A stretch of DNA of 32,826 nt from a virus (IMGVR_UViG_3300021171_000035:1-32826), one strand, 5' to 3'; positions 2,284 to 27,796 are shown, numbered from the stretch's first letter. Translations and numbers: made by a program. Notes: generated by a model from the letters alone, not told the origin.

Positions 2284-2459
2284 CTAGGGGCGCTCAACCT
2301 TATCGCAAGAAGCATTATGACCTGAGGCGGCGGGCGCTGCGGAAGCGGTTTGATCCGTATGAAGACTCGGTGATTTTTGAAAAGCCGCTGCGGCTTTCTC
2401 GCGAAGAGAACGTGCAGTTTCTGAAGACGCTAGAGAGGGAAGTTCGCGTTGGAAAGTGA
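2280..2459 (+). CDS. Very small basic protein between terminase block and portal
   Basis: A 59-residue ORF starts at ATG 2280 in an ATGA junction with the upstream stop and ends at TGA 2457-2459, overlapping the TTG start of the portal by 11 nt. The N-terminal half is very basic (YRKKHYDLRRRALRKRFDP), the C-terminal half is mixed-charge helix. No family is recognised. It closes an otherwise empty 170-nt interval, and the tight overlaps on both sides argue that it is real. Its overlap with the portal start suggests it exists partly to deliver ribosomes to the portal gene, whose TTG start is weak. Confidence 0.55.
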   Translation: MTRGAQPYRKKHYDLRRRALRKRFDPYEDSVIFEKPLRLSREENVQFLKTLEREVRVGK

Positions 2460-4227
2460 CGATCTCGGACTTGGCCCCTCGGACGACGTTAGCGCTTGGC
2501 TCGCTAAGATTGAGTCCGCGCGCAAAGATGACGGGATGGCCAAGTACGAAGAACGCTGCCATCTGATCCGGCGGAAGTATCGCTATGAAGACAGTGCGCT
2601 GGTCAAAACCCGCAAGTATCAGATGCTGTGGTCCAACATTCAGACAATGCAGAGTGCCATTTATGCCAAGCCCCCGCATGCAGTGGTATCGCGTCGATTC
2701 CGTGACCAAGATCCTATTGCGCGGACCGCTACGGAGGTCTTGGAGAGGGCAATCAATTTTACCTTTGACGCGGCCGACTTTGATACAGAGTTCAGAATGG
2801 TCCGCGACGAGTTCCTACTGTACGCCAGAGGTGTCGCAAGAGTTTACTATGAACCAGAGTATGAAACCGAAGACGACTCAAACGAGGAAATCGAAGATGC
2901 CGAAGACATTGTTGGAGATAGAGGAACTTCACACTACGGTAGCGGCGCTCTTGGGGCTACTGCTGGATTTGCAAGCGGCGCACCGGGAGGCCTTGGCGGA
3001 GATATTGGAGGAAGCGGGCCTCAGTTCGGAGGTAGTTATACCTCGCCTGCGGGAAGCGTTGGCAATCTTGGACAAGGCGATCGCGGAAGTCCAGGAGACC
3101 GAGAGCCTAAGCTAAAATTCGAAAATGTCCGCATTCGCTTTGTCCAGCGCGCCGACTTCCGGCATCAACCGGCCAGAGTGTGGTCTGAAGTTGGGTGGGT
3201 TGCGTTCCGGGCGTATTTGACCCGAGCGGAGGTTAAAAAGCGGTTTGGTGATAAAGTTGGCAAGGACATCTCTGTTGATGCCGATCCGGTGGGCAGCGAT
3301 GCAGAGGAGGGACGAGAAGGAAGATCAGGACAGAATGCAGCCGAGAACAAAGCCGTTGTGTGGGAGATATGGAACAAGGCGAAGAATGAGGTTCTATGGA
3401 TTTCTCCGGGCTACGACGACGTGCTTGAGAAAGGCCGTCCCTATCTTAATCTTGATGGCTTCTATCCTTGCCCTTGCCCTACCTATGGCACGCTCACGCC
3501 TGATAGCCTGGTGCCTGTTCCGGATTTTGTATTCTATCAGGATCAGGCTGCTGAGATTGATCAATTAACCGCGCGGATTGGGGCGTTGTCGGATATGCTC
3601 AAGCTCGTGATGTTCTATCCGGCCGGGCCCGGAGGGGAGGGATCGCCGGAAATCGAAAAGGCGCTATCACCAGGGTTTGAGAACAAGGGAATTGCGGTAC
3701 CAAGCAACTTTGCGGCGTTCCTCGAGGGTTCGAAGACGGGCGTGCCGGTGGCATTCCTGCCGACCGATGATACAGCCAAAGTGATTCAGGCGTGTGTCGA
3801 GCTCAGAAAGCAGTTGGTGGAAGATGTCTATCAAATTATCGGAATCTCAGACATTATGCGAGGGGCGACGGATCCGCAGGAAACCGAGGGCGCTCAACAG
3901 CTCAAAGCGCAGTATGGTGGCACGCGAATTAAAGATCGTCAGGCAGAAATCGCCCGCTTCTGTCGAGATATTGCGCGGCTCGTGGGTCAGGTTATCGCCC
4001 AATACTGTTCTCCCCAAACCATCATGGAAATGACCAACATCAAGCTGCCCTCGAAAGTGGACCTGATGATGGCCCAACTGATGCAGGCTAGCGCCGCGGG
4101 GCAAGCTGTACGGGAGCCGCAGCAAGGGATGAACGTAGCCAACATGCCTCGGCCAATACCCCCCACTGGCGCGCCACCGCAGGCCATCCCAAGGCCGCTG
4201 ACGCCAATTCCAATGGGAACGCGATGA
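2449..4227 (+). CDS. Portal protein (head-tail connector vertex), body
   Basis: The protein is predicted to form the dodecameric ring through which DNA enters and leaves the capsid. It has 592 residues from TTG 2449 (GAGGG about 10 nt upstream). The N-terminal third has the usual portal layout: helical KYRYEDSALVKTRKYQMLWSNIQTMQSAIYAKPPHAVVSRRF, then ARTATEVLERAINFTFDAADFDTEFRMVRDEFLLYARG-V-A-R-V-Y-Y-E. The central part contains FVFYQDQAAEIDQLTARIGALSDMLK, and the ring-forming helix includes IMRGATDPQETEGAQQLKAQYGG. Residues about 150-222 are an odd Gly/Ser/Ala-rich insert whose +1 frame encodes a separate helical ORF (2897-3115). The protein ends in a Pro-rich tail just after SKVDLMMAQLMQ; in the relatives I recall, the domain of the next gene follows in the same polypeptide. 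Confidence 0.85.
   Translation: MESDDLGLGPSDDVSAWLAKIESARKDDGMAKYEERCHLIRRKYRYEDSALVKTRKYQMLWSNIQTMQSAIYAKPPHAVVSRRFRDQDPIARTATEVLERAINFTFDAADFDTEFRMVRDEFLLYARGVARVYYEPEYETEDDSNEEIEDAEDIVGDRGTSHYGSGALGATAGFASGAPGGLGGDIGGSGPQFGGSYTSPAGSVGNLGQGDRGSPGDREPKLKFENVRIRFVQRADFRHQPARVWSEVGWVAFRAYLTRAEVKKRFGDKVGKDISVDADPVGSDAEEGREGRSGQNAAENKAVVWEIWNKAKNEVLWISPGYDDVLEKGRPYLNLDGFYPCPCPTYGTLTPDSLVPVPDFVFYQDQAAEIDQLTARIGALSDMLKLVMFYPAGPGGEGSPEIEKALSPGFENKGIAVPSNFAAFLEGSKTGVPVAFLPTDDTAKVIQACVELRKQLVEDVYQIIGISDIMRGATDPQETEGAQQLKAQYGGTRIKDRQAEIARFCRDIARLVGQVIAQYCSPQTIMEMTNIKLPSKVDLMMAQLMQASAAGQAVREPQQGMNVANMPRPIPPTGAPPQAIPRPLTPIPMGTR
2897..3115 (+). CDS. Candidate overprinted gene in +1 frame of the portal gene
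   Basis: A 72-residue ORF lies wholly inside the portal gene. GAGGAA at 2884-2889 gives a well-placed ribosome site for ATG 2897; the stop is TAA 3113-3115. The product is acidic, strongly helical and coiled-coil-like (LEIEELHTTVAALLGLLLDL, REALAEILEEAGL, REALAILDKAIAEVQ). By hand count, third-position G+C is 52/72 codons in this frame but only 26/72 in the overlapping portal frame, which here is low-complexity with 12 of 22 Gly codons as GGA, although Gly-rich genes elsewhere in the window favour GGC. The coding phase therefore seems to switch to this frame. Caution: Gly-rich DNA read one base later naturally yields Ala/Glu codons. No homologue is recognised. Confidence 0.5.
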   Translation: MPKTLLEIEELHTTVAALLGLLLDLQAAHREALAEILEEAGLSSEVVIPRLREALAILDKAIAEVQETESLS

Positions 4228-4982
4228 TAGGAGGAATGAATGTCCCTCAAGGACCTGGAGCGGGAGCAATGGGACCGCCTGGGGGCGGCTTACCTGGCGC
4301 GCCGCAAGGAAATGGAATTGGCGCGAGGCCCGCTGGTCCGCCTACTCAGGAGGATGTCTTTGGGCTGCTCAAAAAGCCAATCAGCAGATTTTTCAAGATC
4401 GATATCGAAACCGACTCAACCGTCGCCGGCGATGAAAGCCAAGAAAAGCAGGACCGAACAGACTTCATCGAAGCAGTGACCAAGTTTATGGAATCATGGG
4501 GCCCTATGGCCATACAGAAACCGGAACTAGCGCCGCTCGCTGGGCAATTGCTGCTGTTCGGAGTGCGTGGGTTCCGAATTGGCCGTGAGCTCGAAGAAGT
4601 GATCGAAGAGACAGTTGATCGGATGGGGCAGGCGCCGCAGGGGCAGCAAGAGGATCCGAAGGTTACGGCCGAAAAGATCAAGATCCAGGGCGCCCAGATC
4701 AAGGCGCAGGGCGAACAGCAGAAAGCCCAAACGGAGGCGCAGACCAAGCAACAAGAATCCGCAATCAAGTTGCGCGAAATCATCATTAAATCGCAAGCCG
4801 AAATGCAAGAGGCTCAAATGAAGCTTGCAGCTCTCGAGCAAGAGCACGGCCACAAGCTCGCAGAGGGACAAATGGCCCACGCTGCCGCGATGGACCAAAT
4901 GGCGATAGAGCGGCAGAAAGCACAAGTAGCGGCAATGCCTAAATGGCCCTCTGGCCCGACGGGCAACGATCAGGGCTTCTGA
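4224..4982 (+). CDS. Portal C-terminal domain / coiled-coil protein encoded separately
   Basis: The 252-residue ORF starts at ATG 4224 in an ATGA junction with the portal stop (an in-frame ATG also at 4236). After a Gly/Pro linker, residues about 45-135 contain GLLKKPISRFFKIDIETDST, then KQDRTDFIEAVTKFMESWGP, and LAPLAGQLLLFGVRGFRIGRELEEVIEETVD. I recall the signature F-x-I-D-I-E-T-D-S-T as the C-terminal domain of larger podovirus-type portal proteins, so this appears to be the missing end of the portal. Residues about 140-235 are a long Gln/Lys/Ala/Glu coiled coil. The product probably joins the portal ring as a separate subunit or clip/barrel extension; alternatively a recent frameshift or inserted DNA split one gene. 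Confidence 0.75.
   Translation: MIGGMNVPQGPGAGAMGPPGGGLPGAPQGNGIGARPAGPPTQEDVFGLLKKPISRFFKIDIETDSTVAGDESQEKQDRTDFIEAVTKFMESWGPMAIQKPELAPLAGQLLLFGVRGFRIGRELEEVIEETVDRMGQAPQGQQEDPKVTAEKIKIQGAQIKAQGEQQKAQTEAQTKQQESAIKLREIIIKSQAEMQEAQMKLAALEQEHGHKLAEGQMAHAAAMDQMAIERQKAQVAAMPKWPSGPTGNDQGF
4240..4479 (+). CDS. Candidate overprinted gene at the portal / portal C-domain junction
   Basis: A 79-residue ORF starts at ATG 4240. The only strong ribosome site at this junction, AGGAGG at 4229-4234, lies 5 nt before this ATG; the overlapping 4224 frame has only a weak site. The first 39 codons give a charged helix (MSLKDLEREQWDRLGAAYLA and on to LVRLLRRM), with G/C at third positions in 33/39 codons against 17/39 for the overlapping Gly/Pro-rich 4224 frame. 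After about 4357 this bias disappears and the rest (Ser/Lys-rich, to TGA 4479) looks like read-through of the conserved portal-domain DNA. It is in the same frame as the upstream portal gene, 12 nt after its stop. It may be a true small gene or the remnant of an inserted coding segment. Confidence 0.5.
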   Translation: MSLKDLEREQWDRLGAAYLARRKEMELARGPLVRLLRRMSLGCSKSQSADFSRSISKPTQPSPAMKAKKSRTEQTSSKQ

Positions 4983-5113
4983 TGATTCCGCTGTGGCTGC
5001 AATATGTATGCGATGGGGCAGCATGGACCTGCTACCCGAGGGCGTGGCTGCAACCGTATAGTTGGTACATTTGGATTTGGCCTATGGCGGTGGTGAAATG
5101 GTCCAGCAAATAA
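4982..5113 (+). CDS. Trp-rich microprotein
   Basis: A 43-residue ORF starts at ATG 4982, sharing bases with the upstream stop (TGATG), with AGGG upstream, and ends at TAA 5111-5113 just inside the following fibre gene. Seven of 43 residues are Trp (LWLQY, AAWTCYPRAW, YSWYIWIWP). The C-terminal half is hydrophobic and could insert in or lie on the membrane. It fills the whole gap between the portal C-domain gene and the GH43-like fibre and overlaps the latter by 16 nt, a coupling arrangement. No family is recognised; compare the other Trp-rich microproteins of this window. Confidence 0.5.
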   Translation: MIPLWLQYVCDGAAWTCYPRAWLQPYSWYIWIWPMAVVKWSSK

Positions 5114-8100
5114 ACATCAACATGAACCCGCTTACGCCAGGCGTGCGTAATGCGCAGATGATCAATGATCCGCTATTTCCAAACGTGATCCCGTGCAATT
5201 TTAACGCCGACCCGACTGTACCCGGGGTGATGCAAGTCACCCTAACCGACGATCCCCTAGCGCCAAATCTGCTCTATTTCATCGATAGCGACGACACGAC
5301 GTTGCAGCCGCCTGGATTCCCTGATGTTCAAATCCTCGGAACTCTGATCGGAACTGGGCTTCTAGATACCGGCACAGGTGACGCTACGAACCTGCTTCAA
5401 TCCTCGCAGCAGTCGTTTAACATTCCGGTCGGGGATTGGGTCAATTCAGCGGTTACGACGATTGATACCATTGCAACCGATCCCCTAAGCACCACAACTG
5501 CCTCGACCATCACCGAAACGGCGGTAACATCGACCCACTATGTGCAACAAGGATTCCAGACCGCCGTCGTGACGGAGGTCTCGTTCTCGGTCTACCTGAA
5601 ACAGGGAATAAGGACACGGGCGCAGCTGTTTCTAAAAGACTCTATGACGACGACGAACAGCGCCACGGCAACGTTCGATCTCGCTGGCGGGGTGGTCGGA
5701 ATTGCTGCGGCAGCAGTCGGGACATGGACGACGCCTCTCGCCACCATTACGGCCGAGGCGAACGGGTTTTATCTCTGCACCCTTTCGGCCACCTTCACCG
5801 GTGGCTCAGGGAGCTACTTCTGCCTGGTCTACGCGGACAATAGCAGCGGCGTGTTAGGCTCAAGCATCAGTTACCTGGGCAGCACGGCGGGCGTCGCCCT
5901 GACGATATGGGGCGCGAAGGTCAACACTGGCGTTCCGGCCGCGTACACGGTCAAGAATACGAGCCTACTTGGCGCGGTCGGGACTACGGTTCAGCAACAG
6001 TTCCAGCCGAATGGGACAACTACGGCATTTTGGGGAACCCAGACGGATAACGCTTGGATAGGCTTCGATGCCGGGGTGCCGGTTCAGTGGACACGCTACC
6101 GGTTCGCGCCACGGCCCTCATCGGCCACAACCCAGACCTATCCGAACGCGCCGGACTACGCGGCGTTCATCGTCGGAACGGTCGTTCAGACCGATGTGGC
6201 GGATTCGACCTTTGCGACACCAACGCTCGCGGACACAATAACCGGCTCGCCCTATTATCCTCGTTATTGGTTGGCCGAACGGCCGATATCCGCTTCCCTA
6301 GCCCAAGCGCGCTATATCCGGATGAAGACTCCTTCAAACGTTTACGGCGGCATTTCCGCATTCCAGGTATTCGCCAAGATCGGAACGACAGCCAATGCGC
6401 GCCCGGTCGAACCTGTCATCACCCCTAACGGAGGGCGATATCCTGGGCTGACGACGCTCGTCACCATGCAGAGCAGCCAAGGGGCTAAGATCTATTACAC
6501 CATTGGCCAGGGCTCCACCCCCGCAGACCCGACCACCTCCAGCGCGCTTTATACCGGTTCGTTCAGCGTCACGATCTCGGCCGGCTCCTATGCTGTCGTC
6601 AAGGCGATGGCAAACATGGCTGGGCTCTCGACGCCTAACTCTACGGTCATAACCTCGGCCCCATACTACGGCTACGGCTACGCGCCGGCGGATAATTGGT
6701 ACGATCACATCGGCCAGCTAATCGAGGCCCACTCGGGGAGCATCATATGGGACCCAAATTCCAAGTACTACTATTGGATGGGGCAGTTTCAGAATATCAA
6801 TTCGATCCAGAGACCTGGGCATGTAGGAGAACCTAACGGGTTCCCTGATACTTTCTTGTATCGTTCAACTGATCTAATGAACTGGACGAATATGGGCAGT
6901 GTGTTGCCAAATGTGTCGCCTACCTTGTTCATTGGCGGCAGATATCACTTAATGTACAATGCGCTGAATAACAACTATGTTGTATGGCTGCAGCCGCAGG
7001 ATAATGCCGGTAACTCCACACTGTTCGAGGCTAACACCCCAATAGGAGGCGGCAACATACTGACCGGCTGGGCGTGGAACATGACGCCTATCATCTCCAA
7101 CACGTTCTACGATTACGACCTGTTTCTCGACAGTGACGGAATCAGTATGTATTGTTTTTGGCGCAACGGCATATCGACCGACATGAGAGTACAGCAACTC
7201 AATACCAGTTACACCGGGTTCACTGGTTCGCCTACGATCATTCCGTATGTGGACACTACGCGCGAGGGTCCCGCATTCTTCAAGTATCCCTATGCGGCAG
7301 GCGGTACGTACTTCATTGTCACATCAGTGAATATCCCATACGACTCAGTGGGAGTGGATGCAAACTTAAGATATATCGTGAACACTGGCGCGACGCCACT
7401 TGCCAATAACTGGACGCCTCTCGACGGCTCGCTTGCGTTTGCCTCAGATCCGTTCGGGGGCAATTACAACTTCCAACCGACCCATGCTTTCGTTCCGCAA
7501 GGCAAGGTTCAGCCGGTGATAATGGGAGACTTCTGGCATAATGACCAGAACTACAATAGCCGCTATGTCTTCGCGCCGGTTGTCTGCATAGGCCAGCAAA
7601 TGACGATTCAGACCCCTACCTCATGGGACCCGAGTCAGCTTGCATCGGCATACACTCTGAACACTCTCAATCTGACAGCTAATGCGTTCACCGCAGGAAG
7701 CGCACAAGGGACCGCAATAGGCGGTATACAGGGGACCTTCCAAAGCTCTGGGCTTGGCTTGCTCGACAGCCATGGCGGCGCGGTTCAATTGAGCGGGTTC
7801 AACCTTCAAGTTGGCCCCACGCCTCCCGCGGGCGCCGGAACGTTCAATATCACACTGCAGGAGACAATCTCACCAGGTACCAACTCACCGAACAATACGG
7901 TGCTGTCGATCAATGAAGTGGCGGCGGGCGGATATCTGAGCGGGGCGGTGTCAACCGGGACAACCACAACGTTCCTTAACCTGACCAGTCTAGGGAGTGT
8001 CGATTGGGCAGCCTTCGGCTACAATTCGAGCGCTGCCTCGATCGAGCGGAAGTCAACCGGCGGATCTCTGATAAGCACTCTTACTGCGGTCGGAGGGGTG

Positions 8101-8517
8101 CTTGCTAACTTCAACGAGGGAGTCAACCCACTTTATTCGTCATCCTGGCAGGATGGCAACGTCCATCCATCAGTCGCTAATGAAAACTATCTCGTTTACA
8201 ATTCCGGCGGCAATGGAACCGGCATGTCATTGACTGTGCCAGCTGGCATAAAAGTGCAAACACTGACATTGTATGTCACGGTTAGCTTCAATGCGGCGAC
8301 TTTAACACAGGGGAAGCTTACTGCGACATTGAGTGACGCCAGCGCCGGTCCGTACACTGATACATCGGTTCAAATGACCAATGGCGCGGCCAATCTGCTT
8401 GGCAGATATATTCTCACGTTTGCTGCCGCATCGAACAGCCAGACACTTACGGTAACGTGGGTGAACAACACAGCTAACTCACAGAATGTGCAACTATTTG
8501 CGGCAACTCTCAACTAA
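5098..8517 (+). CDS. Large virion fibre/spike with GH43-type beta-propeller (galactanase-like) domain
   Basis: ATG 5098 gives 1139 aa; the frame is open from TTG 5062 but GGTGG precedes 5098. The N-terminal part is beta-rich, with a discoidin/carbohydrate-binding-like stretch before residue 420 (ARYIRM, YGGISAFQVF), then a chitobiase-C-like Ig domain (PITP-type start, KIYYTIGQGSTP, LYTGSFSVTI). Residues about 530-840 match the GH43_24 exo-beta-1,3-galactanase plan: EAHSGSIIWDP (543-553), YYWMG, LYRSTDLMNWTNMG, YDYDLFLDSDG, REGPAFFK (acid candidate E723), NFQPTHAF (Q793, matching the Gln proposed as base in that subfamily), MGDFW (809-813) and SRYVFAP. The C-terminus is more beta domains. It likely binds and trims a host surface polysaccharide. 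The propeller region around 6760-7400 is locally richer in A+T, hinting at mosaic acquisition. Enzymatic specificity is inferred. Confidence 0.75.
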   Translation: MVQQININMNPLTPGVRNAQMINDPLFPNVIPCNFNADPTVPGVMQVTLTDDPLAPNLLYFIDSDDTTLQPPGFPDVQILGTLIGTGLLDTGTGDATNLLQSSQQSFNIPVGDWVNSAVTTIDTIATDPLSTTTASTITETAVTSTHYVQQGFQTAVVTEVSFSVYLKQGIRTRAQLFLKDSMTTTNSATATFDLAGGVVGIAAAAVGTWTTPLATITAEANGFYLCTLSATFTGGSGSYFCLVYADNSSGVLGSSISYLGSTAGVALTIWGAKVNTGVPAAYTVKNTSLLGAVGTTVQQQFQPNGTTTAFWGTQTDNAWIGFDAGVPVQWTRYRFAPRPSSATTQTYPNAPDYAAFIVGTVVQTDVADSTFATPTLADTITGSPYYPRYWLAERPISASLAQARYIRMKTPSNVYGGISAFQVFAKIGTTANARPVEPVITPNGGRYPGLTTLVTMQSSQGAKIYYTIGQGSTPADPTTSSALYTGSFSVTISAGSYAVVKAMANMAGLSTPNSTVITSAPYYGYGYAPADNWYDHIGQLIEAHSGSIIWDPNSKYYYWMGQFQNINSIQRPGHVGEPNGFPDTFLYRSTDLMNWTNMGSVLPNVSPTLFIGGRYHLMYNALNNNYVVWLQPQDNAGNSTLFEANTPIGGGNILTGWAWNMTPIISNTFYDYDLFLDSDGISMYCFWRNGISTDMRVQQLNTSYTGFTGSPTIIPYVDTTREGPAFFKYPYAAGGTYFIVTSVNIPYDSVGVDANLRYIVNTGATPLANNWTPLDGSLAFASDPFGGNYNFQPTHAFVPQGKVQPVIMGDFWHNDQNYNSRYVFAPVVCIGQQMTIQTPTSWDPSQLASAYTLNTLNLTANAFTAGSAQGTAIGGIQGTFQSSGLGLLDSHGGAVQLSGFNLQVGPTPPAGAGTFNITLQETISPGTNSPNNTVLSINEVAAGGYLSGAVSTGTTTTFLNLTSLGSVDWAAFGYNSSAASIERKSTGGSLISTLTAVGGVLANFNEGVNPLYSSSWQDGNVHPSVANENYLVYNSGGNGTGMSLTVPAGIKVQTLTLYVTVSFNAATLTQGKLTATLSDASAGPYTDTSVQMTNGAANLLGRYILTFAAASNSQTLTVTWVNNTANSQNVQLFAATLN

Positions 8518-8523
8518 GGAACT

Positions 8524-9924
8524 ATGCCAATGATACGGAATGGTTTGTTATTCAGTCTTCTATCCGTGATCCTTTGCCCCAGCTATGGTGAGGCGTGCGA
8601 GTCCAACACTTCAGTTATGAACACAATGGCTATTCAGAGCCCATGCGTCTCCAATTTGGATGGAACCGGATTCGTCATCACCCAGAATCAGGTTACGCCT
8701 CACGTGACTAACGTGCCGGTCGCGGATGCCAATATGTTCATTCCGGCAAGCACGGCGTTACCGGTCACGGTGCAGGCTCCAGGCGCTGAGAATGTGGAAG
8801 TATGGATGCACGGCGCACTGGCAAAGAGGCTGGTGTTCAGCAACGGCGTCTGGACTGGCACGGTGGACACAACCAAAACGCAGCTATGCGCGCCGCCGTT
8901 CCCTGGGTTCTGCAACTACGAAGGGCCGATGTTGATGGAGGTCCTGACATGGAATACGCCTCCGGGCGATAATTCTTTCACGGTGCACCTTGCCGCGTCG
9001 TTCGATGTATGGGTGCACAATACGCTCAATAGCTGGTATCCATTTATCACGCCCAAGGGTGCCGGTTCGATGCGGCAGGTTTTCTTTGATCGGTTTGGAA
9101 CATTAAACGCAGAAGCGTGCGGGGCTGGCGTATGGCCGAATTGCACAGCGCCCGCAACAGCGGCGGACGGCAAAACCTATTGGGAAAACAAGCCGCGCGG
9201 GGGAGACTTTGGAAACGCCGCGAACGAACATAGCGACGGGCCATACAATCCGTTCAACACCGTAATTGGATCAATCAATATGCTGCCAGGGCAAGTCGGG
9301 TTCCTGCGTATTCGATCGACTTATGACCCGAACTATGTCGATCCTTACGGGTTCAATCGGCACTGGCGCAGCGGGTTCCTGTCCACTGCATTCAATGATG
9401 GCACGTCCAACGTTCCGACCATGACGAATGGCGGCTATTGCGAGATCAGGGCCAAGGTTCCGAAGGCGGACGCGGCATGGAACACGGGCGCGAGCGGCGG
9501 CACCTGGCCGGCATTCTGGGCGCTCGATCGCGACGCAATCACCAACGGTTCGATCGGAAACGTCGAATGGGACATTACCGAAATGTATGGCGTCGATAGT
9601 TCCGTATGGCACAGCAATGTGCACAGCTACGCGCCAGCAACTGGACCAAACCAGGCCATTTTTGACGGGCGCCCTGACGTGACTGAGCCCGATCTATCCT
9701 TGGATTTCCACCGCTATGGGTTGCTTTGGACGGCCACGACCACAACTGCTTATTTTGACGATGTGCCATTTGGCTCATTGCCGATCAGCCAGTTTCCAAA
9801 TGGCAAGAAAATTAACCCGTATCTCCTGATCGATCTCCAGCAAGGCGGCGGCTGGCCATCTAACCCGCCTCCGGCCGGATATAACGACATGTGGATCGAT
9901 TACGTGAAGTGCTACGCGCCATGA
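8524..9924 (+). CDS. GH16-family endo-glycanase with signal peptide
   Basis: The 466-residue protein starts at ATG 8524 (a second ATG at 8530). The first 24 residues are a clear export signal (basic MIRNG, hydrophobic LLFSLLSVIL, cleavage near YGEA). The C-terminal half is a GH16 jelly-roll: GGYCEIRAKVPK, WPAFWALD, the catalytic E-x-D-x-x-E signature E348-W-D-I-T-E353 (nucleophile and acid/base glutamates), then DFHRYGLLWT and YFDDVPFG. GH16 enzymes cut beta-1,3/1,4-glucans or galactans. The N-terminal half has an Ig-like beta domain (VTVQAPGAENVEVW). It follows the GH43-like fibre by 6 nt, so the pair probably attack the same host exopolysaccharide. A Sec-type signal peptide is unusual for a virion part and suggests export from infected cells. 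Substrate unknown. Confidence 0.85.
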   Translation: MPMIRNGLLFSLLSVILCPSYGEACESNTSVMNTMAIQSPCVSNLDGTGFVITQNQVTPHVTNVPVADANMFIPASTALPVTVQAPGAENVEVWMHGALAKRLVFSNGVWTGTVDTTKTQLCAPPFPGFCNYEGPMLMEVLTWNTPPGDNSFTVHLAASFDVWVHNTLNSWYPFITPKGAGSMRQVFFDRFGTLNAEACGAGVWPNCTAPATAADGKTYWENKPRGGDFGNAANEHSDGPYNPFNTVIGSINMLPGQVGFLRIRSTYDPNYVDPYGFNRHWRSGFLSTAFNDGTSNVPTMTNGGYCEIRAKVPKADAAWNTGASGGTWPAFWALDRDAITNGSIGNVEWDITEMYGVDSSVWHSNVHSYAPATGPNQAIFDGRPDVTEPDLSLDFHRYGLLWTATTTTAYFDDVPFGSLPISQFPNGKKINPYLLIDLQQGGGWPSNPPPAGYNDMWIDYVKCYAP

Positions 9925-10142
9925 AATGCGATTGGGGTGAAGTAGTCACCGGTTGGGGGCCTCGTAAGAGGGAGATTGATCTCACAACGCGGGTACGTCA
10001 GCTAGAGGAACGCGAGCGGGAGCGTGACGAGCTGCTTCTTAGCTATATCCGTTCCGATATGGCATCGCCATGGATGGCCTCAGCTAAGGAGTTAGCGGCG
10101 TTTCTAGACAGGCCATTGCCATTCGAACGGATAAAGAAATGA
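9921..10142 (+). CDS. Small charged coiled-coil protein
   Basis: The ORF starts at ATG 9921 in an ATGA junction with the GH16 stop and gives 73 residues; the frame is open further upstream inside GH16. Residues about 14-36 form a strong charged coiled coil (PRKREIDLTTRVRQLEERER). The tail ends FLDRPLPFERIKK. No family is recognised. It couples with the next gene through another ATGA junction at 10139. A head or scaffold accessory role is suggested by position only. Confidence 0.55.
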   Translation: MKCDWGEVVTGWGPRKREIDLTTRVRQLEERERERDELLLSYIRSDMASPWMASAKELAAFLDRPLPFERIKK

Positions 10143-10567
10143 GCGAAAAGTTCGTTTGGGACACGCTTGAGGGGAGACTTCGGCCATGGGCCGAGGTAGC
10201 GGCGCGGCGGCGGGAGAGGGCCCGTTCCTCGCTTGCCGCGCCGTCGATCATCCGTGACGGTCTCGACAATGTGGTGAATCCGGTGGACGGGAAGGCATAT
10301 GATTCGAAAAGCGCGTATTATCAAGCAGTTAAGGCGGCTGGCTGTGAGATCGTGGGCAATGAGGCTGAGAAAATGGTTGGCCCCTCGAGCGCGCGGTCGG
10401 ATGTGAATAGCGCGGATATCGGTGAGGCGCTTCACAAGGTGAAGCAGGGTTATAAACCGTCGCCTGAGCCGTACACATCGGATTTAGATCAGCTAATTGG
10501 GAAATATCCGGCGCAAGAATGGCCAGAAGGCATGACACAAGAAGATATAGAGGCTGAACGTGGCTGA
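10139..10567 (+). CDS. Conserved phage head-module protein with SKSA-type motif
   Basis: The 142-residue protein starts at ATG 10139 (ATGA junction). Its core is PSIIRDGLDNVVNPVDGKAY then DSKSAYYQAVKAAGCEIVGN. The pattern 'I-x-D ... P-x-D/T-G-x-x-x-D-S-K-S-A-[FY]-x-x-x-x-K-A-A-G-C-x-[EI]-V-G-N' recurs in small proteins encoded just upstream of the scaffold and capsid genes of many podovirus-like phages, as far as I recall. Function is unknown; the position argues for a head-assembly role. The C-terminus is acidic and overlaps the GTG start of the scaffold by 8 nt. Confidence 0.7.
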   Translation: MSEKFVWDTLEGRLRPWAEVAARRRERARSSLAAPSIIRDGLDNVVNPVDGKAYDSKSAYYQAVKAAGCEIVGNEAEKMVGPSSARSDVNSADIGEALHKVKQGYKPSPEPYTSDLDQLIGKYPAQEWPEGMTQEDIEAERG

Positions 10568-11672
10568 CGACATTGAAGACATTGGCGGTGGCGATTCTGC
10601 CCCGTCCAGCGAACCCGCGTCTGATCCGGCCGAGGAGCTATCGTCAGAGATACGACGCTCTATCGACTCCCAGCGGGACCGGGGGCCGGACGGCAAGTTC
10701 GTAAGGAGCGAAGCGGGGAAGCGCGAAGCGGGGTGGTCTTCCGATGCGCCAGTTTCTAGCCGAGCTAAAGGGGTTGCGACGGGAGTATCTGATCCTAATG
10801 CAACGCCGGATCGAACTGGCGCAGCAAACCGAGCGGCTAAATCGGGAGATAGCGGCCAACGAGGCGGAACTGGAGAAGCTGCTCAAAGCCTTCTTCCGCC
10901 ACCGGGCTATTCTGTCGCTGCTAAACAGGCTTGGGATACCCTACCGGAACCAGTAAAGGCGGATATCGTCAAGCGCGAGCAAGAGGTCAGCGCTGGCTTC
11001 CAGCGCTATGGCGGGCTTCAGAGATTTGCTGAGAGAGCAGAGCAAAATGGGACAAGCCTTCTAAACGCGGTTAATGATTATGATCAGGTCGAAACCGCGC
11101 TGAGAAAAGACCCAATAGAAGGCGTCGAGTTCATGTTCAGAAAAATGGGCAGGAACCCGATTGAAGTGCTTAAGGCTTGGCTTTCAAAGTATGTGCCAAG
11201 GCAGGGTCAGCAAGCGAGCCAAGGCGCCTACGGCCAGCCGCAACAGTATCAGCAGCCTATCGATCCCAACGCGATTGCCAGCCATGCCGCCAATATGGTG
11301 AGGATGGAGTTTCAGCGCGGCCAGATCGACAATGACATCGCCGCGTTTGCGGCCAATCCGGCAAATCGGTTCTTCCCGAACGTGCGGCGGGACATGGCGG
11401 TCCTCGTCCAAGCCGGGAAGGCAGCTGATCTCCAGACGGCCTATGAGGCGGCTTGCTGGATGCACCCAGAGATCCGCGCCATTATGCTACAAGATGCGGC
11501 GGGCGGACAGAATAAGGTGGCCATGCGCACCGCGCAGCGGGCCCAGAGCGCCGCCAAGGCGGTCACGGGGGCGCCATCGAACAGCCACGCCGGGGAACCG
11601 CCAAAGCGGCGCGATCTGTCCCTAGACGAGGAAATTAGGGCGAGCATCGCGGCCCAAAAAGGGCTCACTTGA
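10560..11672 (+). CDS. Putative scaffolding / prohead assembly protein
   Basis: The 370-residue protein starts at GTG 10560, overlapping the upstream gene. The N-terminus is acidic and disordered, followed by a Gly/Ala/Ser linker (residues about 60-115) and then PPPGYSVAAKQAWDTLPEPV, KADIVKREQEVSAGFQRYGG and LRKDPIEGVEFMFRKMGRNP, a helical layout typical of scaffold proteins located directly before the major capsid gene. The C-terminal part is Gln-rich then helical and ends basic (KRRDLSLDEEIRASIAAQKG), as expected for a capsid-binding tail. The linker region carries an alternative-frame ORF (10744-10956). The stop TGA at 11670-11672 lies just before the group I intron region. The assignment rests on position and layout rather than a diagnostic motif. 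Confidence 0.7.
   Translation: MADDIEDIGGGDSAPSSEPASDPAEELSSEIRRSIDSQRDRGPDGKFVRSEAGKREAGWSSDAPVSSRAKGVATGVSDPNATPDRTGAANRAAKSGDSGQRGGTGEAAQSLLPPPGYSVAAKQAWDTLPEPVKADIVKREQEVSAGFQRYGGLQRFAERAEQNGTSLLNAVNDYDQVETALRKDPIEGVEFMFRKMGRNPIEVLKAWLSKYVPRQGQQASQGAYGQPQQYQQPIDPNAIASHAANMVRMEFQRGQIDNDIAAFAANPANRFFPNVRRDMAVLVQAGKAADLQTAYEAACWMHPEIRAIMLQDAAGGQNKVAMRTAQRAQSAAKAVTGAPSNSHAGEPPKRRDLSLDEEIRASIAAQKGLT
10744..10956 (+). CDS. Candidate overprinted gene in +1 frame of the scaffold gene
   Basis: A 70-residue ORF starts at ATG 10744, preceded by GGGGTGG (10730-10736, spacing 7), and ends at TAA 10954-10956. The product is a basic coiled coil (FLAELKGLRREYLILMQRRI, ELAQQTERLNREIAANEAEL, EKLLKAFFRHRAILSLLNRL). 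By hand count, third-position G+C is 51/70 in this frame and 23/70 in the overlapping scaffold frame, which here is a Gly/Ala/Ser linker. The ORF runs about 50 nt into the conserved PPPGYSVAAKQAWDTLPEPV part of the scaffold. The arrangement (own ribosome site, helical product, switched coding phase, low-complexity host frame) repeats that of 2897 and 4240. No homologue is recognised. Confidence 0.5.
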   Translation: MRQFLAELKGLRREYLILMQRRIELAQQTERLNREIAANEAELEKLLKAFFRHRAILSLLNRLGIPYRNQ

Positions 11673-11789: not shown

Positions 11790-11829
11790 AGATCAGCGCA
11801 TGGCGGCCAGCCGAAACAGGCAATACGAC

Positions 11830-12189
11830 ATGAGTGAATCCAAAGCGGAAATTGGCGCCGACTGGATCGCATTGCGATCTATCCCGGAGCCGAATTCTGG
11901 ATGTGTCTTATGGCTAGGCGAACTCAATTCCGCCGGTTATGGGCGCATCAGCCAAGGCAACAATCATGTGGGAAAGCGCGTCAGGTATTTGGCGCACCGA
12001 GTCTCATATGAGCTTGCCAAAGGGCAAGTCCCTGAGGGGATGGAGTTGGACCACTTGTGCAGGGTTCGGTGTTGCATAAACCCCGAACATCTTGAGCCTG
12101 TCACGCGGTCCGAAAACAACCGTCGTGGCGATCTGATGAAGCGCCGTGATGTCCCTAGAGCCGAATGGCAGAAAAGGGGCATCTCATAA
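11830..12189 (+). CDS. Intron-encoded HNH homing endonuclease
   Basis: ATG 11830 gives 119 aa; an in-frame ATG at 11800 would add ten residues but has no ribosome site. The HNH motif is intact: AHRVSYELAKGQVPEGMELD, H-L-C-R, C-C-I-N-P-E-H-L-E-P-V-T, then S-E-N-N-R-R-G, with the metal-binding His/Asn/His and paired cysteines. Such enzymes cut intronless alleles near the insertion site and so spread the intron. The gene lies in a peripheral loop between the three 5' hairpins and the catalytic core, and its TAA stop (12187-12189) is inside the stem of the 12185-12207 hairpin, so gene and RNA structure are interlocked. Confidence 0.85.
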   Translation: MSESKAEIGADWIALRSIPEPNSGCVLWLGELNSAGYGRISQGNNHVGKRVRYLAHRVSYELAKGQVPEGMELDHLCRVRCCINPEHLEPVTRSENNRRGDLMKRRDVPRAEWQKRGIS

Positions 12190-12207
12190 TGGGTTGAAAA
12201 CATTATG
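12185..12207 (+). other. Hairpin with loop complementary to the three upstream loops
   Basis: CATAATG 12185-12191 pairs perfectly with CATTATG 12201-12207 around a 9-nt loop GGTTGAAAA. The reverse complement of this loop is TTTTCAACC, matching the upstream loops TT-A/C-TCAAC-G/T at seven of nine positions. A kissing-loop contact through GTTGA/TCAAC is therefore possible with any of the three. The HNH stop codon lies in the 5' strand, so ribosomes finishing the ORF would open this stem. Confidence 0.6.
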
Positions 12208-12227
12208 GCATCACCTCTCGTTACGAG

Positions 12228-12439
12228 CGTGGATTGATACCCTAGTCCACGTAAAACCGGGTGAAACGGGGAAACTCTCCCAGGAGACAATCCCGTAGGA
12301 AACTCCATATGTAAGCCGAAAGGCCAGGGATGGAGAACCTCTAACGACTAGGCTCCGCGCGAAAGCAGTAATGAGCCCATGAGCCCCCGGCACCGCGATG
12401 GCGGTGATGAGATAGTCTAAGCTGCATGGCGACATGCAG
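12228..12439 (+). ncRNA. Group I intron catalytic core (P3-P9)
   Basis: Readable helices: preceding hairpin CGTGGA 12228 / TCCACG 12246; P3 CCGGG 12257-12261 with CCCGG 12386-12390; P4 ACGGG 12266 / CCCGT 12292; P5 TCTC 12276 / GAGA 12284; P6 CTCCAT 12303 / ATGGAG 12330 with an inner GCC-GAAA-GGC hairpin; P7 GACTA 12346-12350 with TAGTC 12413-12417; P7.1 GGCTC 12351 / GAGCC 12373; P8 CACCGC-GATG-GCGGTG 12391-12406; P9 CTGCATG-GCGA-CATGCAG 12422-12439 with a GNRA loop. The order P7 5', P7.1, P3 3', P8, P7 3', P9 and the td-like P4-P5 indicate subgroup IA, the usual phage type. The RNA should self-splice using guanosine bound in P7. Weaker hairpins follow at 12445-12479. Confidence 0.88.
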
Positions 12440-26168: not shown

Positions 26169-26329
26169 CTAACGCGCATAGCAACATGCCAATAGGCACA
26201 GATTCTGACACGGCCCACTTTAGGAAGCTGTGCAAAGAGCCAATTATGAAGATGAAAAGCGATATGCGAACAACGGCCAGAAATACATTGATCAAACTGA
26301 TCATGGAAACTCCAGATGCCAAGGAATAG
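26165..26329 (+). CDS. Small Met/Lys-rich protein upstream of the collar gene
   Basis: A 54-residue ORF starts at GTG 26165 in a GTGA junction with the previous stop (AAGGAAA about 11 nt upstream) and ends at TAG 26327-26329. The C-terminal half is a basic helix, IMKMKSDMRTTARNTLIKLI. It overlaps the start of the collar gene (ATG 26316) by 14 nt. It fills an otherwise empty 150-nt gap. No family is recognised. Confidence 0.5.
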   Translation: MTNAHSNMPIGTDSDTAHFRKLCKEPIMKMKSDMRTTARNTLIKLIMETPDAKE

Positions 26330-27023
26330 CTCAGGGGTATACGTCCAGCCGGCGAGTGATGTCAATCCTCCGATCGCGGGGACGGTCATCGACCCGGTGG
26401 CATTTGCTGCGGCGCTCACAGACATTTCGAGCGAGATCACCAACTCGCTTGACCGTCTCGGCCGTGCCCCTATGCAGGCCATTCTCCAAATGGCGGGCTT
26501 TAAGATCAGCAATCTTGGTGCCCCGGTTAGCCCAAGCGACGCTGCAAGGCTTACGGATGTTGGGGGATATTTCCCGCCTGGGCTTATTGGATGGTTTGCC
26601 GGCTCAGTGGCGCCGGCTGGGTGGCTTCTTGGCGACGGTAGCGCAGTCTCAAGGACAACTTACGCCGGTTTATTTGCCATATGCGCGACTACGTACGGGG
26701 CGGGTGATGGGTCCAGTACGTTCAACCTTCCTGACCTGAGAGGTGTCTTCGTCCGCGGGTGGGACAACGGCGCGGGGAAGGACCCAGCGCGCGTGTTCGG
26801 TAGTTATCAAGCTGACATGTTTGCGTCTCATACCCACATCCAGAGCGCACACACCCACCAGTATAACACCGTGACGGCTGCGAGCGGCGGCGGCGGCATC
26901 GCCATTCCGGCCGGGGCTGGTTCGGTAGCGACAACGACGGCGGCGGCCGGCCTCAACCAAGTGACCGGCGGTGTCGAAACGGCGCCTAAAAATATTGCGC
27001 TATTGGGGTGCATAAGGACGTAG
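26316..27023 (+). CDS. Tail fibre with phage tail-collar domain
   Basis: A 235-residue protein. The N-terminal about 85 residues (virion anchor) include NSSGVYVQPASDVNPPIAGT and ITNSLDRLGRAPMQAILQMA with GFKISNLGAPVSPSDAARLT. Then a textbook tail-collar domain follows: PPGLIGWFAGSVAPAGWLLG, DGSAVSRTTYAGLFAICATT, YGAGDGSSTFNLPDLRGVFV-R-G. The C-terminal part has SHTHIQSAHTHQY, a paired His-x-His motif like the metal-binding (iron) sites in T4 gp12-type short fibres, and the end NIALLGCIRT. It likely contacts the host surface in the tail-fibre complex. ATG 26316 is used because the anchor sequence starts there. Confidence 0.88.
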   Translation: MPRNSSGVYVQPASDVNPPIAGTVIDPVAFAAALTDISSEITNSLDRLGRAPMQAILQMAGFKISNLGAPVSPSDAARLTDVGGYFPPGLIGWFAGSVAPAGWLLGDGSAVSRTTYAGLFAICATTYGAGDGSSTFNLPDLRGVFVRGWDNGAGKDPARVFGSYQADMFASHTHIQSAHTHQYNTVTAASGGGGIAIPAGAGSVATTTAAAGLNQVTGGVETAPKNIALLGCIRT

Positions 27024-27310: not shown

Positions 27311-27796
27311 ATGATCACAGAGAAAAGACTTAAAGACTTTTTACATTACGATCCCGCATCAGGCGATTGGGCCTGGAGGAGATCGCTAGGTAGAGCGAGG
27401 GCTGGAGACCTAGCTGGCAACAAAGTGCATAACGGTTATAGGACTGTCTTCATCGATGGTGTCCGTCATTCTGCGCATAGGCTTGCCTGGTTCTACATGA
27501 CAGGAAAATTGCCGAAGTCTGAGATTGATCATATCAATATGGACCGCGCCGACAATCGGTGGGACAATTTACGCGTGGCGACAACCTCGCAAAACAAAGC
27601 TAACTCTGGCAAGCGTAGTAACAACACGTCTGGATTCAAGGGGATTTGGTGGCACAAGCGGGCAGGCAAATGGGCGGCCTCAATAATGGTTTCAGGAAGT
27701 AAGCGTTCATTGGGCCTCTATACGACGCCAGAGACCGCTCATGCAGCTTACACGGATGCCGCTAAGAAATATTTCGGGGAGTTCGCGAGGCCGTGA
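27311..27796 (+). CDS. Free-standing HNH endonuclease with AP2 DNA-binding domain
   Basis: A 161-residue protein. The HNH core is HRLAWFYMTGKLPKSEIDHI then NMDRADNRWDNLRVATTSQN (D-H ... N ... N-L-R), followed by NTSGFKGIWWHKRAGKWAAS, IMVSGSKRSLGLYTTPETAH and AAYTDAAKKYFGEFA, a complete AP2/ERF-type three-strand DNA-binding domain. This HNH-AP2 combination is a common mobile endonuclease type in phages. It has no intron features around it and is wedged between the collar-side small gene and the second fibre gene, so it is a free-standing homing endonuclease. Its DNA is locally richer in A+T than its neighbours, consistent with recent arrival. Confidence 0.9.
   Translation: MITEKRLKDFLHYDPASGDWAWRRSLGRARAGDLAGNKVHNGYRTVFIDGVRHSAHRLAWFYMTGKLPKSEIDHINMDRADNRWDNLRVATTSQNKANSGKRSNNTSGFKGIWWHKRAGKWAASIMVSGSKRSLGLYTTPETAHAAYTDAAKKYFGEFARP

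Follow-up and report, generated by a model that had tools for sequence, protein, structure and literature searches.

In phage lambda, one gene of the lysis spanin pair Rz/Rz1 is wholly nested in the other in a different reading frame. The sgl genes of single-stranded RNA (ssRNA) phages, whose products cause lysis, are embedded in the +1 frame of an essential gene, in regions where that gene is less conserved (PMC7693330). The nearest described architecture to the one reported here is ShiLan, in which an out-of-frame HNH endonuclease is hidden inside a phage methylase; the product is a homing endonuclease of 195 amino acids (aa), encoded in the third frame, scattered in distribution, and made without a ribosome site (PMC11855218). 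In hepatitis B virus (HBV), the surface gene lies over the spacer of the polymerase (PMC3618453). The de novo products of overprinted viral genes tend toward disorder (review, PMC8227390). In the open-licence literature, no description was found of a gene nested in a portal or scaffold gene. In this study, three candidate nested genes, designated n1, n2, and n3, were analysed in the IMG/VR virus record IMGVR_UViG_3300021171_000035:1-32826; the whole record of 32,826 nucleotides (nt) is hereafter called the window. A preliminary description of this DNA had placed the three in Gly-rich linkers of the portal, portal C-domain, and scaffold genes, respectively. n1 and n3 are probably genuine overlapping genes, each with its own initiation, that were acquired in the ancestor of a small phage clade.

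The arrangement is that of a nested overlapping gene, a kind already known. Like the hidden gene of ShiLan, n1 lies near the 5' end of extra sequence in a tailed-phage gene whose host frame is open (a presumed loop in ShiLan), and GTG starts occur in both. Unlike it, n1 encodes an orphan helical protein of 72-100 aa in the +1 frame, follows GAGG-N9, and is present in all clade members that cover the site. With sgl, n1 and n3 share small size, the +1 frame, and a location in tolerant parts of an essential phage gene. They differ in belonging to a double-stranded DNA (dsDNA) phage, in occupying two different head genes, and in having no clear membrane segment: none was found in n1, n2, or n3 (maximum 19-residue hydropathy 1.43; no lipobox search was made). 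Location in head genes and lack of a clear membrane segment also set them apart from Rz/Rz1, with which full nesting in another frame is shared. As in HBV, a protein is coded over a variable, tolerant linker of a multidomain protein, with constraint uneven between the two frames. The sgl genes and the HBV surface gene serve as analogues in functional evolution. Against the overprinting trend, the nested products are predicted to be ordered, and the host linker is of low complexity.

Nested frames in the portal and scaffold genes

Searches with the portal and the capsid recovered about 90 related loci. The closest are three IMG/VR contigs (L001, L002, and L003), whose portals are 62-70% and capsids 90% identical to those of the window; the portal of a further locus, L100, is 73% identical to that of L001. 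In the portal tree, the window and these four form one clade with a support of 1.0. The remaining relatives are many more distant contigs, six bacterial contigs of metagenome-assembled genomes, and isolate phages, including Bradyrhizobium ppBjS10J-1, Rhizobium RHph_I3_18, and Myxococcus Mx8/Mx9. In genome contigs, the portal search gave no match and the capsid search gave more distant relatives only. Homologues of the scaffold gene were found as 92 open reading frames (ORFs) of the related loci, located upstream of the major capsid gene; the next conserved gene after the scaffold is the major head protein (PHROGs match). The features of n1 and n3 in the window are as follows.

2449..4227, + strand: portal gene, N-terminal and main part, host of n1 (phrog_12082 portal, E 5e-147, family positions 17-508)
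2855..3117, + strand: expanded portal linker in the host frame, 87 aa (12-66 aa in portals without n1)
2884..2887, + strand: GAGG, probable n1 ribosome site, 9 nt upstream of the start codon; shared by L001, L002, and L100
2897..3115, + strand: n1, very probable nested gene, 72 aa, +1 frame of the portal (four members, coding signal, similarity, AlphaFold model)
10560..11672, + strand: scaffold-position head protein, host of n3 (weak match to phrog_25516, 'virion structural protein', E 1.4e-4)
10744..10956, + strand: n3, probable nested gene, 70 aa, +1 frame of the scaffold (four members, coding signal, blind scan, AlphaFold model)

For null simulations, the host protein was kept and synonymous codons were resampled (usage null, 3000 simulations); a codon-permutation null was also applied. 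The nested intervals stayed open in 15-94% of simulations, varying by gene and null model (usage null in the window: 38% for n1, 20% for n2, and 66% for n3). ORF length therefore proves nothing and was dropped as evidence. The coding scores of n1 and n3 were reached in 0/3000 usage-null simulations in every member (P < 1/3000), and the signal of n3 was as strong as that of n1. The simulation proposed in the preliminary description thus reproduces the length of such ORFs commonly and, under the usage null, the coding content of n1 and n3 never.

A blind scan for gene-like, stop-free stretches of 50 codons was run on the shifted frames of all called genes of the window, L001, and L002. The n1 and n3 sites were recovered in every genome, and the few other rows lay in minus-strand or mis-called ORFs. 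Among 158 portal, portal-C, and scaffold ORFs of the whole family, the n1 and n3 sites scored 0.44-0.96 and the remainder at most 0.06, except for stretches in L035 and L094 at unsure ORF 5' ends, which by eye are run-in from the preceding gene. The nested frames are restricted to the five-member clade, unlike the host genes, which are spread more widely. The design described earlier as recurrent is so within this clade; beyond it, about 150 other portal and scaffold ORFs held nothing similar.

n1 was found in 4/4 clade portals covering the site (window, L001, L002, and L100), a small sample; the L003 contig begins downstream of the site. Both frames are open over the overlap in all members of n1, as in those of n3. 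The +1-frame ORFs in the portal linkers of L001, L002, and L100 are likewise helical and charged, and n1 length ranges from 72 to 100 aa. The start codons (ATG, GTG, GTG, and ATG in the window, L001, L002, and L100, respectively) stand at one homologous position, and all follow GAGG-N9. The similarity of n1 proteins among diverged members is above resampling (z 6.9 for window-L100 and 5.4 for L001-L100), whereas the portal linkers encoded by the same DNA resemble each other in composition only (z 0.7 and 0.0, respectively). Under host-preserving resampling, n1 similarity reached z 13.1 (window-L100) and 6.7 (L001-L100). In the L001/L002 comparison, the portal codon position that changes fastest within n1 is host position 1, which is n1 position 3 (0.22, vs 0.07 outside n1; Fisher P 0.0009). 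For the same pair, the ratio of nonsynonymous to synonymous substitution rates (dN/dS) over n1 is 0.42 in the n1 frame and 0.82 in the host frame. The codon-position shift, dN/dS, and the conservation of n1 over an unconserved host frame indicate purifying selection on n1, which is very probably a real gene.

n3 was found in 4/4 clade scaffolds. The ORFs of L001, L002, and L003 are 62-64 aa long, coiled-coil-like, and at the same place in the scaffold linker; elsewhere among the relatives, the scaffold +1 frame is for the most part a shadow rich in Arg, Pro, and Lys. Between L001 and L003 (L001 13000-13320), DNA identity drops sharply from ~0.93 to ~0.5 where n3 starts and is regained ~130 bases past the n3 end. 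In this alignment, the n3 block is a divergence hot spot, through replacement or fast change, and looks as if it had been swapped as a cassette. n3 is probably a real gene, and the evidence of selection on it is weaker than for n1.

The AlphaFold model of n1 is an antiparallel helical hairpin (helices 2-28, 30-39, and 44-71) with a predicted local distance difference test (pLDDT) score of 92.0 and a predicted template modelling score of 0.74. That of n3 is a single long amphipathic helix of the coiled-coil type (residues 2-62; pLDDT 91.1). Structure searches with n1 gave only generic helical hairpins, the best Foldseek E being 1.3 in the Protein Data Bank (PDB) and 0.17 in viral models; the best VIA-align Z, 8.6, is inside the range called common for helical bundles, and no function was read from it. 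An hhalign probability of 0.4% between n1 and n3 rules out one duplicated family.

Much of the preliminary description of the ORFs themselves agrees with these results. All three exist in the +1 frame of their hosts, their lengths of 72, 79, and 70 aa (n1, n2, and n3) match the roughly 70-80 codons given, the claimed third-position bias appears as a third-position GC of 0.68-0.73 in the nested frames, the n1 and n3 products are predicted to be helical, and these two are not homologous, as had been proposed. A ribosome site had been assigned to each; that of n2 is strong, that of n1 moderate (GAGG, 9-nt spacing), and that of n3 weak.

Several observations weigh against n1 and n3 being real genes. 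Under the codon-permutation null, n1 of the window reaches just P 0.011. The n1 ribosome-site match is just 4 nt and is equalled at 15% of random out-of-frame starts; the weak n3 site is likewise equalled at 15%. In n3, the L001/L002 dN/dS is 0.97 in the nested frame and 0.36 in the host frame (one close pair), and diverged members are modestly similar (z 1.8-3.6), with the host frame conserved as well. The members are few and all on metagenome contigs, several with neighbouring project numbers. AlphaFold easily yields confident helices for helical sequences, and the functional role considered below is a guess.

Host linkers and the candidate in the portal C-terminal gene

The portal linker is 87-103 aa long in n1 carriers, vs 12-66 aa with 0-15% Gly in relatives without n1. 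Over n1, its Gly content is 28-32% in the window, L001, and L002, and 18% in L100. In inspected portals outside the clade, the +1 frame has stops or no gene character. When n1 proteins were back-translated with phage codon usage, the host frame held 14-19% Gly and 55-68% Gly/Ser/Ala/Pro/Thr/Asp/Asn/Gln. Because back-translated n1 by itself gives a Gly-rich, disordered host frame, the look of the portal linker is largely a shadow of n1, and its disorder is probably in large part a by-product of the nested gene and not a pre-existing nursery. Disordered linkers had been put forward as pre-existing sites for new genes; for the portal, this is probably backwards, since the linkers of relatives are short and not Gly-rich. 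The Gly-rich character itself applies to the portal linker and to the N-terminus of portal-C, and not to the scaffold, which has just 13% Gly in the window. In random back-translations, the host frame stays open by chance in only 1-7% per gene; the host frame therefore appears to be kept open by selection, which argues for a translated linker and not an intron. Rfam gave no match at n1 or n3.

The third case concerns the second portal gene, with the following features.

4224..4982, + strand: portal C-terminal part, a separate gene, host of n2 (phrog_12082 positions 520-714, E 9e-38)
4240..4479, + strand: n2, candidate nested ORF, 79 aa, +1 frame, with AGGAGG at 4229-4234; found in the window only

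The two portal genes of the window (2449-4227 and 4224-4982) are joined by an ATGA overlap. A two-gene portal is found in the carrier clade and also in L009, L010, L013, L019, L020, L028, L035, and L090; in other members, the portal is a single gene.

The ribosome site of n2 is the best of the three (AGGAGG, 5-nt spacing) and is matched at 1% of out-of-frame ATG/GTG codons of the window genes. In the relatives, the portal C-domain has its own ribosome site at this position. The coding signal is marginal (0.0017 under the usage null and 0.049 under the permutation null), and the full-length score is negative. Only the first ~40 codons appear coding (P 0.0066); no other window of the portal-C gene is as gene-like (gene-wide P 0.005). 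In the scan of 158 ORFs, the n2 score lies at the upper end of the background. No n2 counterpart is present in the relatives, whose portal-C N-terminus is short. Conservation in relatives was found for n1 and n3, with four members each, and for n2 in no relative. At least two of the three proposed cases are supported, and n2, seen in the window only, is unproven, with about even chances of being real.

Alternative explanations and neighbouring genes

ShiLan (PMC11855218) suggests that n1 might be a captured selfish gene, concealed out of frame in a mobile insertion. Such an origin would account for the extra DNA relative to homologues, the open host frame, the hidden ORF near the 5' end, and the GTG start in two members. 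It is nevertheless unlikely: n1 matches no HNH or other nuclease in Pfam or PHROGs, has just 72-100 aa, and is present in every clade member covering the site and not scattered, with no copy found elsewhere.

All three ORFs could also be mechanical shadows, a disordered GC-rich host frame that, read one base on, happens to be open and helical. Openness and length are indeed common in the nulls, and n2, with its negative full-length score and no conservation, suits this explanation. The shifted frame of the real linkers is, however, Arg/Pro/Gly-rich and not helical. The preliminary description had considered that shifted Gly codons mechanically give Ala/Glu/Leu-rich helices; the shifted peptides of resampled host linkers instead contained 13-22% Arg and 16-22% Pro+Gly, with Glu+Lys+Asp at only 5-9%. 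The coding scores of n1 and n3 lie beyond 3000 resamplings in all members, and the n1 protein is conserved over an unconserved host frame. The explanation is strongly disfavoured for both n1 and n3, and as an account of all three ORFs it is improbable.

Programmed frameshifting in the portal gene, which would attach a helical tail to the portal N-domain and make no free n1 protein, has a similarly small chance of being correct. In its favour, no stop interrupts the +1 frame over at least the 48 nt that precede the n1 start in all four members. This upstream stretch is, however, an Arg/Lys/Thr-rich shadow without gene character, and the n1 start codon with GAGG-N9 keeps one homologous position in the four members.

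That the shifted-frame conservation is a by-product of RNA or DNA selection (an intron, a structure, or a packaging signal) is very improbable. In its favour, the window does carry a group I intron, although at 12208-12439, away from n1 and n3. Against it, neither n1 nor n3 matches Rfam, their start regions are no more stably folded than shuffled sequence (z -0.55 to 2.0), and the n1 protein pattern persists where L001-L100 DNA identity drops to 0.27-0.6.

Between the scaffold and the major capsid gene (window 11800-12439), an HNH endonuclease ORF (HNH_3, E 8e-16) is followed by this intron match (53 bits); the intron probably interrupts the capsid gene at its 5' end. A further HNH endonuclease gene lies at 27311-27796 (phrog_99, E 9e-68). 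The portal-scaffold interval of the window holds two large secreted-enzyme-like genes at 5062-9924, a GH43/chitobiase-like gene (1151 aa) and a GH16 glucanase gene (466 aa); in L001, portal and capsid lie too close together for these two genes to fit. The coding score of a +1-frame stretch at 26563-26682, within the tail-fibre gene (26316-27023), is borderline (gene-wide P 0.005).

Proposed origin, possible roles, and meaning

We propose that n1 and n3 were gained in the common ancestor of the window, L001, L002, L003, and L100. Both would be read in the +1 frame of low-constraint linkers in late head genes, the portal and the scaffold, from the same mRNA as their hosts. The products, separately initiated, would be small, soluble, and helical, and each would represent an orphan family. 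Translation would start inside the host genes, as the sequence suggests; the start position and GAGG are conserved for n1 only. On the arrival of n1, the portal linker would have lengthened by tens of codons. The host frame would have remained open and in phase, its Gly/Ser/Ala-rich disorder being mostly a shadow of the overlying helical protein.

Free-standing homologues of n1 and n3 were found neither in six-frame ORFs of all loci nor in IMG/VR or GenBank phages (tblastn, E <= 10). Searches of Pfam, PHROGs, and PDB sequences with the nested proteins gave only noise (E > 0.03). Because family, PDB, and phage matches are lacking, function is deduced from position only. Our best guess is that n1 and n3 are putative accessory factors made in step with the portal or the scaffold, for example, a helical head-assembly partner; a putative anti-host role is also open.

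A broader interpretation, tentative and with perhaps one chance in a few, is that two unrelated newborn helical proteins have been coupled to portal and scaffold translation by nesting, with the linkers lengthened and reshaped, and that n2 is a third, younger case. If so, each nested partner would be synthesised at the same time and place as its host protein. n1 and n3 provide two candidate orphan families tied to the portal and the scaffold, head-assembly steps with poorly known cofactors. Nested ORFs on the same strand are discarded by gene callers, which would thus overlook structured genes in the 'disordered linkers' of phage structural proteins. Their footprint, a lineage-specific linker expansion with unconserved host-frame sequence and a protein-like shifted frame, can be scanned for in viromes.

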